DNA of 64,000 nt, from contig CALVAX010000003.1 of the NCBI GenBank assembly GCA_944325605.1, positions 124,001-188,000 on the forward strand, given 5' to 3'. The position numbers and the translations under genes are program-made. Under the pieces are notes generated by a model, which was given only the letters and a program-made list of their open reading frames with translations, did no database searches and had not been told where the DNA came from. Below are positions 3,849 through 63,149 of the stretch, in pieces; position 1 is the stretch's first letter, and each line of letters opens with the position of its first letter. This DNA comes from Candidatus Gastranaerophilales bacterium (GTDB taxonomy: Bacteria; Cyanobacteriota; Vampirovibrionia; Gastranaerophilales; Gastranaerophilaceae).

Positions 3849-4535
3849 CTATCTGTACCACGGGTAATCCGGAGCAAACTCCCACCCGTCAGACATAACT
3901 TTCGAACCGCAAGACCTTGAATCTTCTACATCATCTATCATATCTATTGTGCAGAAGTGTCCCTCTCCAAAACCTGTTATTACGCCTTTATCAGTGTTGA
4001 TCATGAATTGAAATACGTCAATCCCTATTATATTCGGATTTTTGGGGCCGTTTAAGTCAATTGAAAGAAGCTGAAGCTTTTGAGGATTATCTGCCGTAGA
4101 ATTTCCGTTATATGGTCTTATATATGCATAAGTCCCGTCGCCAAAAATAAATCCCGGAATATTGTTATTCTGTCCGTACCATTTGTAATTTTTTAAGTCA
4201 GCAACACTTGCATAACCGGTTATCTTATATCCGCAGTCTTTCATCTTTTCGCATATTTGCAAGACATTAAGGTACGGCTTCCAGTATAATTCAAAGTATT
4301 TCAGGTTTTCTTTGTAAGTGCTGGAAGGTTCAAGCGTCCACCAGGTGTAAGAAGGCCCGTTAAACTCCTGTGACATCATCAGTGCTTGTGAAAATGTTGA
4401 ATATGCTTTTTTCAATTGTGCGGAAAACTGTTTCTTTTGATAGTTTGTAACAAGCGCCGGCAGTGTCATAGCAATAACAATTCCGAGAATTCCGAGAGTT
4501 ATAAGAACTTCGGCGAGTGTAAAAGCTTTTTTCAT
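3849..4535 (-). CDS. Prepilin-like protein (type IV pilin / pseudopilin N-terminus)
   Basis: 228 residues. The class III leader is minimal, MKKA, cut before FTLAEVLITLGILG, with the expected Phe at +1 and Glu at +5 followed by a hydrophobic helix (about 5-28). The remaining 200 residues form a secreted head with paired cysteines and many aromatics; its tail resembles the other two prepilin-like proteins of the window (an IDxFxFxIxTDKG segment and a C-terminal DGWEFxPDYPWYR). The start has AGGAGG with 5-nt spacing. It stands alone, away from any pilus assembly gene. It should be a substrate of the peptidase encoded at 49832-50809. Major or minor pilin, or a secretion pseudopilin, cannot be told apart. 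Confidence 0.88.
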   Translation of the reverse strand: MKKAFTLAEVLITLGILGIVIAMTLPALVTNYQKKQFSAQLKKAYSTFSQALMMSQEFNGPSYTWWTLEPSSTYKENLKYFELYWKPYLNVLQICEKMKDCGYKITGYASVADLKNYKWYGQNNNIPGFIFGDGTYAYIRPYNGNSTADNPQKLQLLSIDLNGPKNPNIIGIDVFQFMINTDKGVITGFGEGHFCTIDMIDDVEDSRSCGSKVMSDGWEFAPDYPWYR

Positions 4536-49831: not shown

Positions 49832-50809
49832 TTATAAAAGGAACATCCACAAAAATGCCCCGACAGCCATCGCAGGGCCGAACGGAAGAATTGTCAAATC
49901 ACTGTCTTCCTTCATTCCTTTAATAACTCTGAAGCAGGTATAAATTCCGATTGCAAGAAGCACAATGGTCGCAATCAGACAAACAAAAATATTTTCAATC
50001 AATCCTGTATTATCAGCATAAGCAAAACCGGCAGCCGCAACAAAGAACAAAATAAGAGAAATCATAGTATTAAAGTCTTTTTTGCTGGCAAGTTTTTTGA
50101 AAAATCCTGGAATAACAATTCCGACCTGAACAACAACGCTTAAAAGAAGCATAATAAGGAATGCTTTGAATCCGAAAAATGCGCCGAGTGCCGCCGCAAT
50201 AAAAGTGTCGCCAAGTCCGAAAGCTCTTTTCCCGACCGTAATTTTTCCGACACCTGCAAGCAGTTCCATAACAAGAGCCGACGCTAAAATCCCGATTATT
50301 GAACCTGTAATCGGCAGAGCCAAAATATTATGAAAATTCATCTCAAAATTTCCGAATTCAGCAACTTGAGTGAAACTGAGATAAATATTATAAATAATTC
50401 CCGCAATAATCAGGAACCAGGCATGTCCCGAACAGATAACCTGTTCTTTCAAGTCCGTAACAGACATTACAATAAGCCCGCAGCAGCAGATGAATGTGAA
50501 TAGTGCCGTAATTGTCGGATAAAATTTGAACAAGCATGCAACCATAACCAGTCCTGTAAAAAATTCAACAATCGGATATTGAATGCTGATTGGGGCATGA
50601 CAGTATGCGCATTTTCCTCTTAAAAAGATATAAGACAAAACAGGAATATTATGCCAGGGTTTGATTTTGTTGCCGCAGCTTGTGCAATGCGAAGGCGGCA
50701 GAACAATAGATTCTCCTGTCAAACCTCTCAGCGCAACAACGTTTAAAAAGCTCCCGATTATCGTTCCTACAACAAATGTCAGTATAGCGACAAGAACTAT
50801 AATTTCCAT
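49832..50809 (-). CDS. pilD: Prepilin leader peptidase / N-methyltransferase (family A24)
   Basis: 325 residues with about eight membrane helices. The zinc-binding cytoplasmic loop has two CxxC pairs (CTSCGNKIKPWHNIP and CAYCHAPISIQYP). The two catalytic aspartates are in SVTDLKEQVI and GLGDTFIAAALGAFFG. The enzyme cuts prepilins after Gly/Ala and methylates the new Phe. Substrates here would be the proteins at 3849, 55268 and, if expressed, 60661. It starts 2 bp after the sigma factor gene on the same strand. Between its stop and ruvA (49687-49831) lie only repeat remnants. Confidence 0.94.
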   Translation of the reverse strand: MEIIVLVAILTFVVGTIIGSFLNVVALRGLTGESIVLPPSHCTSCGNKIKPWHNIPVLSYIFLRGKCAYCHAPISIQYPIVEFFTGLVMVACLFKFYPTITALFTFICCCGLIVMSVTDLKEQVICSGHAWFLIIAGIIYNIYLSFTQVAEFGNFEMNFHNILALPITGSIIGILASALVMELLAGVGKITVGKRAFGLGDTFIAAALGAFFGFKAFLIMLLLSVVVQVGIVIPGFFKKLASKKDFNTMISLILFFVAAAGFAYADNTGLIENIFVCLIATIVLLAIGIYTCFRVIKGMKEDSDLTILPFGPAMAVGAFLWMFLL

Positions 50810-55267: not shown

Positions 55268-55990
55268 TTACCAATATTTAATTTTCCAGCCGTCAAACAT
55301 AACTTTTGCGGCGCAAACCATACCTCCCGTATTACTTTTAGGATTGCAGGCATGTTTTTTGGACGCATTTATCAAATCAGAACTTGCCCAATTATATCCT
55401 ACGGGTTTTATATCATTTCCGATTATAAAAAAGAAAAATAAGTCATATCCTGCAGTATTCGGCCCCTTTGTTCCTCCGTTTGTATCAATAAACAGGAATA
55501 TTTCATTGCCGTCTTTATTGTTTAATCCAATGCAGCTTCCGTCCATCAGCCTCATTGAAGTTGTGTTGTCCGGATAAAACGGTGTAGAAATATAAACATT
55601 TGTCAGCCATTTATACTGTGATCTGGTTTCACCTCCGTTCGAGTCCACGCTGTTAAATTCTTTGCCTTCAAAACACAAAAGATTTTTATCGGTAGTGTCA
55701 GTTTTTGTGTAAATTTTCGGATTATTAAGTTCCGGAGCGATATATCTCCGTAAAATTTCTTCAGCGTTATCCCAATCAGGCCAGTCTTTTATTTCGCCAT
55801 ACTTTGCCTGTGCTCGTAAAAATGCCTGAGATATTATCGTGTACGATTTTTGTAACCGCACTTCGGCAACTTTTCTTTGATGATTTTTGATAACAGCCGG
55901 CATAGTCATACCGGCAACAACTCCGATTATACCAAGAGTTATCAGTACTTCGGATATTGTAAACCCGTTTGGTGATGGTATATAGCTCAT
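55268..55990 (-). CDS. Prepilin-like protein
   Basis: 240 residues. Leader MSYIPSPNG, cut before FTISEVLITLGIIGVVAGMTMPA; the Glu at +5 is present but the leader has no basic residue, unlike the one at 3849. The head domain contains two Cys pairs and the DIxGxxGPNTAGYDLFFFFI segment that matches IDxNGPKNPNIIGIDVF of the first protein, and ends DGWKIKYW. So it is a paralogue. The start has no strong ribosome site. It stands alone next to an XRE gene, as the first one does. It should be processed by the peptidase at 49832. Confidence 0.86.
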   Translation of the reverse strand: MSYIPSPNGFTISEVLITLGIIGVVAGMTMPAVIKNHQRKVAEVRLQKSYTIISQAFLRAQAKYGEIKDWPDWDNAEEILRRYIAPELNNPKIYTKTDTTDKNLLCFEGKEFNSVDSNGGETRSQYKWLTNVYISTPFYPDNTTSMRLMDGSCIGLNNKDGNEIFLFIDTNGGTKGPNTAGYDLFFFFIIGNDIKPVGYNWASSDLINASKKHACNPKSNTGGMVCAAKVMFDGWKIKYW

Positions 55991-59479: not shown

Positions 59480-60523
<1,044 letters not shown>

Positions 60524-60574: not shown

Positions 60575-60603
60575 TTGAATTTTTCGGAATAATAGTTTAT
60601 CAT
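60575..60603 (+). promoter_or_regulatory. Promoter ahead of the poly-G tract
   Basis: TTGAAT (60575-60580), 17-bp spacer, TATCAT (60598-60603). It is followed by the ribosome site GGAGGG (60629-60634) and a GTG at 60642 with 7-nt spacing, so a real translation start exists here even though the reading frame from it is closed in this sequence. Confidence 0.7.
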
Positions 60604-60660
60604 GTAAAAGGAAATAATAGTTCATTTTGGAGGGTTAAAACGTGAAAAGTCACACTATGA

Positions 60661-62136
60661 TTGAATTTCAGGGGGGGGGGGGCAACCTGTAATCAGGCTC
60701 CTTCAAGCATTTTAGCCGAAAGTAATGTAATTAAGCGTCATCCTGAGCCGAAGGCGAAGGATTCCAATAAAAAGCAAGTAGATTCTTCAGTCGCTTTGCT
60801 CCTTCAGAATGACGTGCAAGGAGCGGGGAAATTTTTCGGGCTTTGCGCTCAGAATGACAAGGCAGCACAAGGAGATTCTTCGGGCATTCGCCCTCAGAAT
60901 GACATGACACAGTGTGACGAGCCTATTTGCTCTGACCTAAGTGACGGAAATACTCAAAACCCAAAATGCCGCGATAGCGAAGTGAACAATAATTGCAGAC
61001 AAGGCAAACGTCAAAGGCGGGTATTGTCCGAGCGCAGCGAGTTTACCCGCCAAAATGCCGAGTCTAGCAAATTATTAGTGAACGAAGCGTGCGGCTGGTT
61101 TGCGTCGCTTTGCCATCAAAGCGACCGCTGTCCGCGCAGGACGAAACAAAAACCGGAAGTAGATTCTTCAGTCGCTTCGCTCCTTCAGAATGACGTGCAG
61201 GGTGCGTGGGAATATTTCGGCCTTTGCCCTCAGAATGACAAGACAGAGCGAGATGATTCTTCGGGCATTTGCCCTCAGAATGACATAAAAAAGGACGTCA
61301 TCCTGAGCCAAAGGCGAAGGATCCACTTAAAACACAATTGGATTTTTCACTCAGTTCAGAATGACAAGCAAAGAAGGCATTCAGCCTTCACAATGGCGGA
61401 AGTTCTGATTACGCTTGGTATAATCGGAATTGTCGCTGCGATGACAATGCCGGCACTTATTGCAAACCATAGAAAACAGGTGATGCTTTCAAAAGTAAAA
61501 CATACTTATAATATTATAGCCAATGCCTTTGAACGCGCAAAAGTAGACCATGGTACGAATATTAATTACTGGTATATTCCTGACACGGGTTCTCAGCTTG
61601 AAAAGAGTATATTCTTTGTCGAAAATTATTTGCTGCCGTATCTTAATGCTCCGATATATTGTGCCGATAAACCAACTGCACCTTACTGTTTTTATCAGAT
61701 AAGGTATTTTAGCGGAGATAGTTTCTCTAACTGGGGGCCTGCTGATAATAATTCAGGTACAGCATTATTATTGAGCAGCGGAGTGACAGTATCAGTTACA
61801 GTTGGCGAACTTGCTACGCTGGATCCGGACGATCCTTTAAATGAATCTATTAACAGAATAAGAATTTTGTTTGATATTGACGGTCCAAAAGGTTATAACC
61901 GTTACGGTTACGATGTATTCTGGCTTGAACTTGGCGGGGCGGAAGGCAGATTAGAGGGAAATAATGCTGATAAAAATAAAATATTGCCATACGGTTATGA
62001 TCTTGCCAAATCCTGTGATTATTATGTTTCTAATATAAATTATGCGTGCAGACCTGATGTCCAATATAGCGGCGGATATTGTCTGGCATATATTGTTTGT
62101 AACGGCTGGGATGCCGGTAAAAAATATCCGTGGTAA
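60661..62136 (+). CDS. Prepilin-like protein preceded by repeat-derived reading frame; start region out of frame
   Basis: The frame is open from 60661 (TTG) to the stop at 62134-62136, 491 residues. Residues from about 244 on are a complete prepilin-like protein: RRHSA, cut before FTMAEVLITLGIIGIVAAMTMPA, then a head domain ending KKYPW as in its paralogues. The 240 residues before it are translated family B repeats. The real start signals (GGAGGG, GTG 60642, ATG 60657) lie one base out of frame and stop at TAA 60690-60692; a tract of 11 or 14 G instead of 12 would join the frames. Either an insertion split the leader, or the gene switches by slippage. No start codon lies just before the leader. 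Confidence 0.75.
   Translation: MNFRGGGATCNQAPSSILAESNVIKRHPEPKAKDSNKKQVDSSVALLLQNDVQGAGKFFGLCAQNDKAAQGDSSGIRPQNDMTQCDEPICSDLSDGNTQNPKCRDSEVNNNCRQGKRQRRVLSERSEFTRQNAESSKLLVNEACGWFASLCHQSDRCPRRTKQKPEVDSSVASLLQNDVQGAWEYFGLCPQNDKTERDDSSGICPQNDIKKDVILSQRRRIHLKHNWIFHSVQNDKQRRHSAFTMAEVLITLGIIGIVAAMTMPALIANHRKQVMLSKVKHTYNIIANAFERAKVDHGTNINYWYIPDTGSQLEKSIFFVENYLLPYLNAPIYCADKPTAPYCFYQIRYFSGDSFSNWGPADNNSGTALLLSSGVTVSVTVGELATLDPDDPLNESINRIRILFDIDGPKGYNRYGYDVFWLELGGAEGRLEGNNADKNKILPYGYDLAKSCDYYVSNINYACRPDVQYSGGYCLAYIVCNGWDAGKKYPW
60671..60682 (+). repeat. Poly-G tract (12 G) near a translation start
   Basis: Twelve consecutive G at 60671-60682, in a genome region where runs of G longer than five are otherwise rare. 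It begins 29 nt after the GTG at 60642. Tracts of this kind are prone to slipped-strand mispairing. Confidence 0.9.
60735..61370. repeat. Family B repeat cluster
   Basis: Several tandem and inverted pieces of the motif CATCCTGAGCCGAAGGCGAAGGATTC and TCTTCGGGCATTCGCCCTCAGAATGACA (shortened here) recur about every 50-100 bp, for example near 60738, 60780, 60840, 60870, 61160, 61230, 61260 and 61295. The same family occurs in the 40425-42010 mosaic. The cluster keeps one frame free of stops throughout. Confidence 0.8.
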
Positions 62137-62159: not shown

Positions 62160-63149
62160 TTAATTCGTCAAAATTCCGCTGTTCTCGCCGAATATAAATA
62201 CCTGAAGTGCATTTTCGGGTGTTTTTACAGGTTTGTAAAAGTGTTTTACAAGTATAATCTGGTTTTGAATTGCCGAATAATTCTTGTTTCTTAAGTATTC
62301 GCCGAGTTTTTCTGCTGTTCTGGTGTAATTTTTTTGCTTCACAAACGGATAAAAAATTGTTCTGCGTCTTGAAATTTCTGATATTGCATACTTCAAAATA
62401 TCATCGTAAGAAATTTCGTAGCCGTCATTTGTCATAAAATCAATTATGAAATTTGTATTGTCACTCGTTGTAATTGAAAGATACCCGATAATTCTTTTTT
62501 TTGACGGATCCTCAAGCACATATCTGTTTTTGTAGAATTGTGAATATCCGCCAAGAATCGGATCTTCAAATTCCTGTTTAATTCTTTCAAGAGATACTTT
62601 ATAAATTGTTTCAATTTCAGCATTGTATAATTTGCAGACATTTTTGGCATCCCCGTTGTTGAAGGGGCGAAAGCCGTAAGGGACTTCCGGATTTTTGTCG
62701 AAGTTTTCTATTTTCCATAAAGTTTCGCTGGCGCACTGCCTGAAACCGCATCCGTCAGTAAAAAGCCTTAGAAGTTCATCGTGGCATTCGTCGACTGATA
62801 CTATAAAAGAACTAGCGCCTTTTGCAGAATATTTTGAGGTTACAAAATCAATGAGCTGTTTGCCTGCGTCATACAGATTGTTTTGCAAAACCAGACGGGT
62901 AATGTTAATCTTGTAGGGATTACCTATTGCCGGCTCGACTGTAATAAGCCCTAAAATCTCTTTTTCATCCAGAAGAATGTATGATTCATTTAAAAATTTG
63001 TACTTCAATGGCAAAATAGAGTTCAGCAGCCCGAAAGGTGTATTAAAAAAAGCTTTCGTGAAAAATTCACCTTCAGGAGAACCCAGATATGATATCATTT
63101 TTTTTAGTTTCGGATAGTCAAAGCAGTTTAACTTTCGGATACGTGTCAT
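62160..63149 (-). CDS. GNAT-like acetyltransferase domain protein
   Basis: 329 residues, apparently two GNAT-type halves: residues 1-150 (MTRIRKLNCFDYPKLKKMI ... EKEILGLITVEPAIGNPYKINITRLVLQNNLYDAGKQLIDFV) and 165-310 (YGFRPFNNGDAKNVCKLYNAEIETIYKVSLERI ... KKRIIGYLSITTSDNTNFIIDFM). The order of strands fits the acetyl-CoA fold, but the pyrophosphate loop Q/RxxGxG/A is weak in both halves, so catalysis is uncertain. The ORF starts with ATG 63149; no strong ribosome site. The substrate is unknown. It is convergent with the pilin-like gene. Confidence 0.7.
   Translation of the reverse strand: MTRIRKLNCFDYPKLKKMISYLGSPEGEFFTKAFFNTPFGLLNSILPLKYKFLNESYILLDEKEILGLITVEPAIGNPYKINITRLVLQNNLYDAGKQLIDFVTSKYSAKGASSFIVSVDECHDELLRLFTDGCGFRQCASETLWKIENFDKNPEVPYGFRPFNNGDAKNVCKLYNAEIETIYKVSLERIKQEFEDPILGGYSQFYKNRYVLEDPSKKRIIGYLSITTSDNTNFIIDFMTNDGYEISYDDILKYAISEISRRRTIFYPFVKQKNYTRTAEKLGEYLRNKNYSAIQNQIILVKHFYKPVKTPENALQVFIFGENSGILTN

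Follow-up and report, generated by a model that had tools for sequence, protein, structure and literature searches.

Poly-G tracts in prepilin leaders as a probable phase-variable switch of type IV pilin-like genes in gut Gastranaerophilales

The DNA analysed here, called the window below, is a 64-kb stretch (C3:124001-188000) of a genome of 2.15 Mb in 30 contigs, and towards its end lies a type IV pilin-like gene preceded by a promoter, a short leader frame and a run of twelve G (Table 1). A preliminary description of the sequence had placed a promoter, a GGAGGG ribosome site, a GTG at 60642, twelve G and a stop at 60690-60692, and all of these coordinates are exact. The −10 element lies 38 nt from the start codon. 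As written, the leader frame gives a product of 16 residues (VKSHTMIEFQGGGGNL), whereas from the tract onward another frame runs uninterrupted to its stop at 62134-62136. As the same description held, 11 or 14 G join the leader start to this long frame ending in a prepilin. A one-unit change in the tract thus toggles an otherwise intact reading frame, with G12 stopping at 60690 and G11 or G14 running on to 62136. The prepilin motif, A^FTMAEVLITLGIIGIVAAMTMP, begins at 61387, 233 codons past the tract. The G12 is the sole run of six or more G within the window, and none of 100 dinucleotide-preserving shuffles contained a G12.

Table 1. Features of the poly-G pilin locus and of its surroundings in the window, in window coordinates.
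Feature	Position	Strand	Basis
Sigma-70-type promoter, TTGAAT (60575-60580), 17-base spacer, TATCAT (60598-60603)	60575..60603	+	sequence
Shine-Dalgarno GGAGGG, start codon 7 nt downstream	60629..60634	+	sequence
Leader ORF, OFF state: GTG start (60642-60644), VKSHTMIEFQGGGGNL, TAA 60690-60692	60642..60692	+	translation
G12 slippage tract, OFF; ON at 11 or 14	60671..60682	+	sequence, shuffles, paralogues
Spacer of 233 codons in the pilin frame, with dispersed repeats	60688..61386	+	open in pilin frame only
Mature type IV pilin-like protein, 249 aa, FTMAEVLITLGIIGIVAAMT...YPW	61387..62136	+	PF07963, TIGR02532, AlphaFold
ilvC (ketol-acid reductoisomerase), divergent, upstream synteny anchor	59480..60514	-	PF07991/PF01450
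Conserved 329-aa ORF, downstream synteny anchor, no Pfam matches	62160..63149	-	ORF, Pfam, synteny
Prepilin peptidase match (PF01478)	50117..50491	-	converted from G000:C3:174117-174491

The encoded protein has the features of a prepilin, namely the motif A^FTMAEVLITLGIIGIVAAMT, a cleavage site of the form [GA]^F, a glutamate at position 5 and a hydrophobic N-terminal segment. It matches the N_methyl family PF07963 (E 8e-5) and scores above the cut-off of TIGR02532, and in a profile search its N-terminal part matched type IV pilins and GspG. AlphaFold (pLDDT 87.9) places a helix at residues 3-55 and strands between 103 and 201, a confident prediction of a long N-terminal helix and a beta-rich domain for the mature protein. 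For the C-terminal domain, neither Foldseek nor VIA-align returned a confident match among solved structures; the best Foldseek match is weak (FimA, E 0.71), and VIA-align places PAK pilin at Z 4.3 (119 residues, rmsd 3.7) with unrelated proteins at similar Z. The genome also encodes PilB- and PilT-type ATPases and a prepilin peptidase, the enzyme required for pilin processing. Two further prepilin genes in the window, both on the reverse strand (4464-4535 and 55904-55969), have short leaders and are tract-free, and another tract-bearing pilin lies 1.4 kb past the window end.

The same arrangement recurs across the genome. It contains 22 G-runs of eight or more, about 16 of which have a short leader start on one side and a prepilin on the other, and these share a common anatomy: their own promoter, a strong ribosome site, an ATG or GTG, about nine codons, the G-run and an out-of-frame prepilin. 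Leaders read, for instance, MKSRTMIEF, MAKMQSIIEF or MLKRSHRANF, and the pilin begins FTMAEVLITLGIIGIVAAMT; the window leader starts with GTG, its paralogues with ATG, reading MKSRTMIEF or MKSSTMIEF. There are 45 N_methyl matches in the genome in total. The tract-free pilins start a few codons ahead of the cleavage site (MKKA^F, MKRG^F), and the tract module therefore substitutes for the usual start. A decayed cassette, with G9-T-GG and a stop between tract and pilin, resembles a fossil switch (L060, G000:C10:39914).

We scanned sequences from 84,980 species for a run of G9 or more followed after 15-45 bases by FT[LM]AEVLIT, and found at least 118 stretches from at least about 45 assemblies, among them genus mates of the window genome, including G003. 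The informatively named matches among those listed are Candidatus Gastranaerophilales, Melainabacteria, Cyanobacteria SIG30/SIG32 and Ca. Scatousia. The one exception by name among the matches listed is a record called 'Fusobacterium sp. CAG:439', which we take to be an old label for the Gastranaerophilales/Melainabacteria clade. Across the order, G10 or longer occurs in 183 of 241 genomes, with a maximum of 176 and nearly all within one family, some genera of which have no tracts at all; other Cyanobacteria, whose genomes are larger, mostly have 0-8 runs, a few reaching about 30-40. Viral contigs gave no matches. When considering 42 genomes of the family, the number of tracts correlates with the number of pilins (Spearman 0.87), and the median prepilin count is 18.5 in 20 tract-free genomes compared to 108 in 20 genomes with at least 50 tracts, the highest counts per genome being given as at least 150. 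Runs of nine or more in the tract loci are G/C in 144 cases and A/T in 22. Across the family, the promoter score upstream of leader starts is 10.18 compared to 8.80 for shuffled sequence, with a median of 34 nt from the −10 element to the start. The preliminary description underestimated the scale of the candidate switch.

We collected 263 distinct tracts. At 222 of them both a leader start and a prepilin motif lie within 1.5 kb, and at 211 of these 222 loci no stop interrupts the pilin frame as far back as the tract. Of the 50 spacers of 40-300 codons, 39 are open in the pilin frame where a Markov model expects about 1.2, and either of the other frames is hardly ever free of stops; selection therefore maintains the frame from the tract onward. 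In the mature pilins, substitutions by codon position number 2448/1674/4824 and 61% of the changed codons are synonymous, a pattern of purifying selection that argues for expression of the pilins at times. No codon-level constraint was found in the leader peptide, which hence lends no support to the switch. Alternative starts past the tract were considered and rejected: 113 of 191 OFF genes have no ATG, GTG or TTG in the pilin frame there, and only 19 of 191 have a plausible ribosome site at one. In the window the only candidate near the tract, TTG 60661, is without a ribosome site and is absent from the other leader types. Translation has to enter from upstream, across the G-run.

With the start chosen automatically by its ribosome site, 19 of 210 scorable loci (9%) are in frame and 191 are OFF, where chance (33%) would put 70 in frame (p 2e-16); loci with one clear start candidate give 18 ON and 153 OFF. 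As many of the loci are related, we clustered them by the 24 bases preceding the tract, and the weighted counts over 126 leader clusters are 10.2 ON, 62.8 at +1 and 53.1 at +2. The OFF excess is robust, and the commonness of both OFF phases after weighting disfavours a fixed programmed frameshift, which would use a single phase. Lengths also differ between copies with nearly the same surroundings, for instance G12 and G13 between two species whose flanks are 99% identical over 100 bp each side, and G11/G12 and G10/G12 among paralogues within one metagenome-assembled genome (MAG) each; at the window locus itself we found no near-identical pair that differs in tract length. Tract length is equal in 49 of 59 near-identical pairs, notably among the window genome's G12 paralogues, which is a narrower spread than expected of a very fast switch, so the switch may be slow, or the consensus may be held by selection for OFF. 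Contigs C9, C29 and C30 of the window genome and several of G007 end about 20-200 bases from a tract, a result either of shared 5′ cassettes or of length mixtures that the assembler left unresolved.

Loss of mismatch repair is ruled out as a cause of the tracts: all 42 genomes, tract-bearing and tract-free alike, have MutS_I, and slippage is thus not aided by MutS loss. In several tract-free genomes (genera g17 and g18, and G148) MutS is shorter and lower-scoring, at about 770-785 aa compared to mostly about 860-940 aa, and the type of MutS may be connected with whether tracts are maintained.

Similar tracts are found on genes of other kinds. G006 has two copies of an N6_N4 DNA methyltransferase (L321, G006:C8:21800-24800) with tracts at 184-193 and 1511-1522 on the reverse strand, which split the gene just ahead of the SAM-binding FxGxG motif; the G10 copy is in frame and the neighbouring G12 copy out of frame, making this methyltransferase a candidate phase-variable gene. 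Two acyltransferase-3 genes directly follow a leader and a tract of G14 or G13 in G002 (L020, contig C17) and G012 (L018, contig C27), and surface acylation is by the same token a candidate for phase variation. DNA methyltransferases and acyltransferases are gene classes that are phase-variable in pathogens, so their tracts support a mechanism at the DNA level. Elsewhere in the window genome, a G12 lies opposite an ORF that reads it as a C-run (L052, G000:C2:74412); this ORF is not a pilin, and possibly encodes a surface protein carrying a membrane segment at its C terminus.

We consider it likely that these genes undergo slipped-strand phase variation and that most of them are OFF in each population. 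Each pilin gene would be transcribed from its own promoter and translated from its own ribosome site and ATG (GTG at the window locus), the ribosome meeting the poly-G after about nine codons, inside the prepilin leader. Replication slippage would gain or lose a G. A length with the right remainder (11 or 14 G at the window locus) would fuse leader and prepilin, and prepilin peptidase would then cut ahead of F1 and make the product available to the pilus machinery; other lengths would lead to an early stop, after six further residues at the window locus, and no pilin. With each gene OFF in most cells, a cell would display a small and shifting subset of dozens of pilins. Switching would be reversible in living populations, and the tract pilins would presumably be assembled into pili, with a possible role in adhesion or in escaping phages or host immunity. 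The phase-variable pilin switch proposed in the preliminary description gains support that a single locus was unable to supply, from the leader-tract-prepilin anatomy at more than 200 loci, from frames kept open up to the tract, from purifying selection on the pilins, from length differences among near-identical copies and from the scarcity of in-frame copies.

A different use of the same tracts would be recoding with no change in the DNA, where RNA polymerase slippage or ribosomal frameshifting yields a steady low amount of pilin and the tract serves as a dosage device. Such a device would account for consensus lengths that are almost always out of frame, for the same length being kept by many paralogues and for the frame being kept up to the tract. 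However, ribosomal frameshifting would prefer one phase, and +1 and +2 are about equal by weighted clusters, a balance that counts against frameshifting and not against two-way polymerase slippage. Lengths that vary between copies with almost unchanged flanks, the existence of some in-frame copies, and tracts on methyltransferase and acyltransferase genes all fit switching in the DNA better, and we regard recoding as unlikely. An artefact, with the tract or its length arising from homopolymer or two-colour poly-G errors in sequencing or assembly, is scarcely credible. Almost all the named genomes are MAGs, and a short-read consensus is least reliable in the length of its homopolymers, but the motif keeps a constant position between conserved coding flanks in genomes that come from many separate projects and assemblers, long spacers are open up to the tract, and some genera of the family are tract-free; nor would error shun the ON frame.

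The OFF genes might also form a silent archive, donating sequence by gene conversion to expressed loci as pilS does for pilE in Neisseria, with the 5′ cassette acting as a homology arm. Paralogues that are alike for about 100 bp each side of the tract and then diverge would be expected of such donors, as would the 91% of loci that are OFF and, in the window genome and G007, the several contigs ending near a tract. The copies nevertheless retain a promoter, ribosome site, start and open frame of their own, which a silent donor does not need, and no single expression locus is evident, making an archive very improbable. Slipped-strand switching of the individual genes is therefore our preferred reading.

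Poly-G switching is known in Campylobacter, where the phase-variable targets include methyltransferases and surface-modifying genes and where C. jejuni has 18-39 poly-G phase-variable genes per strain, mostly for surface glycans. The tracts described here resemble those of the Campylobacter phasome in being intragenic poly-G of about 9-12, and differ in having one prepilin family as their main target and in belonging to a different phylum. The closest likeness is in Bifidobacterium breve, where a G-tract switches the sortase-dependent pili of bbr_0113 and bbr_1889, slippage has been measured and the in-frame length is enriched in mice (PMC9187656). Both are gut commensals with a short upstream ORF that has a promoter and ribosome site, an intragenic G-tract, a pilin ORF out of frame with no usable start of its own, and a reference sequence that is OFF (PMC9187656). 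B. breve differs in having two loci, LPXTG pilins with a sortase, a Sec signal upstream and measured slippage (PMC9187656), whereas the Gastranaerophilales have type IV prepilins, a tract within the prepilin leader and dozens to more than 100 candidate tracts per genome. The window protein, a prepilin, has no LPXTG; the locus would work like the Bifidobacterium sortase pilus switch and is not a member of that class. Neisseria shares a variable type IV pilus, an in-frame homopolymer (pilC) and a repertoire of pilin variants (PMC5953494), but there the main pilin varies by recombination (pilE/pilS) and the tract acts on PilC (PMC5953494), whereas every tract-bearing pilin gene here has a promoter and tract of its own.

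The open-access literature, to which our search was confined, gave nothing pairing Gastranaerophilales with phase variation, and for Melainabacteria the one match was a flagellin survey, in agreement with the earlier suggestion that the switch would be new for this lineage. The mechanism is known in kind from Bifidobacterium, Campylobacter and Neisseria; the lineage, the main pilin target, the scale and the OFF bias appear to be new. Reported maxima of phase-variable loci per genome are 54 and 47 in Neisseria, with 36-82 in N. lactamica (PMC5953494), and 81 in one C. jejuni strain (PMC6321876), numbers that are similar to or lower than those seen here and concern other targets. This uncultured commensal lineage has more candidate tracts per genome than these Neisseria (54, 47, 82) and Campylobacter (81) maxima, and mostly on one gene family, which suggests that gut commensals bear one of the largest randomly switched surface gene sets seen so far. 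On balance we incline to the broader view that poly-G slippage is the main surface variation system of this clade of non-photosynthetic gut Cyanobacteria, with up to more than 100 mostly OFF prepilin genes, each under its own promoter, in a 2-Mb genome and a near-unique combination per cell; if so, their slippage-driven antigenic repertoire would exceed that of any pathogen in the cited surveys. Why genomes with many phase-variable loci seem confined to pathogens is, according to a 2025 review, a major unanswered question (PMC11868660), and it becomes testable in existing metagenomes. For annotation, many tract pilins are likely to have been called pseudogenes or ORFs lacking a proper start, and a consensus genome cannot predict what these bacteria display on their surface.

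In one respect the window copy departs from the family pattern. The preliminary description had raised as an objection the roughly 240 residues that would precede the pilin leader; the long spacer is real, and it is peculiar to this copy, where in-frame repeats give 233 codons compared to a family median of 12, so the doubt holds for the window copy and not for the family. The joined leader of about 246 aa may prevent processing of the predicted prepilin. Within the spacer, 60736-60792 recurs at 61296-61352 and 60769-60912 at 61150-61293, and additional copies lie at other places in the genome as well as in relatives. Another seven pilins of the window genome have long, mostly repeat-bearing spacers, all in frame, and G003 has different repeats, also in frame, at the corresponding place. 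A poly-G pilin adjoins ilvC at the window site in five genomes (window, G007, G010, G011, G012), and in seven others (G001, G004, G005, G006, G008, G009, G013) ilvC is followed directly by the 329-aa ORF, G002 and G003 being assigned to neither arrangement. In G007 the pilin next to ilvC shares 60.6% identity with the window pilin over its full length and has a spacer of 20 codons. Dispersed repeats (HPEPKAKD...QNDV, or the HPELDSGS type in G003) lie in frame within prepilin leaders, at 60736-61352 in the window and at many places in the window genome, G002, G003 and G006, and are reminiscent of the in-frame palindromic repeats in Rickettsia genes.
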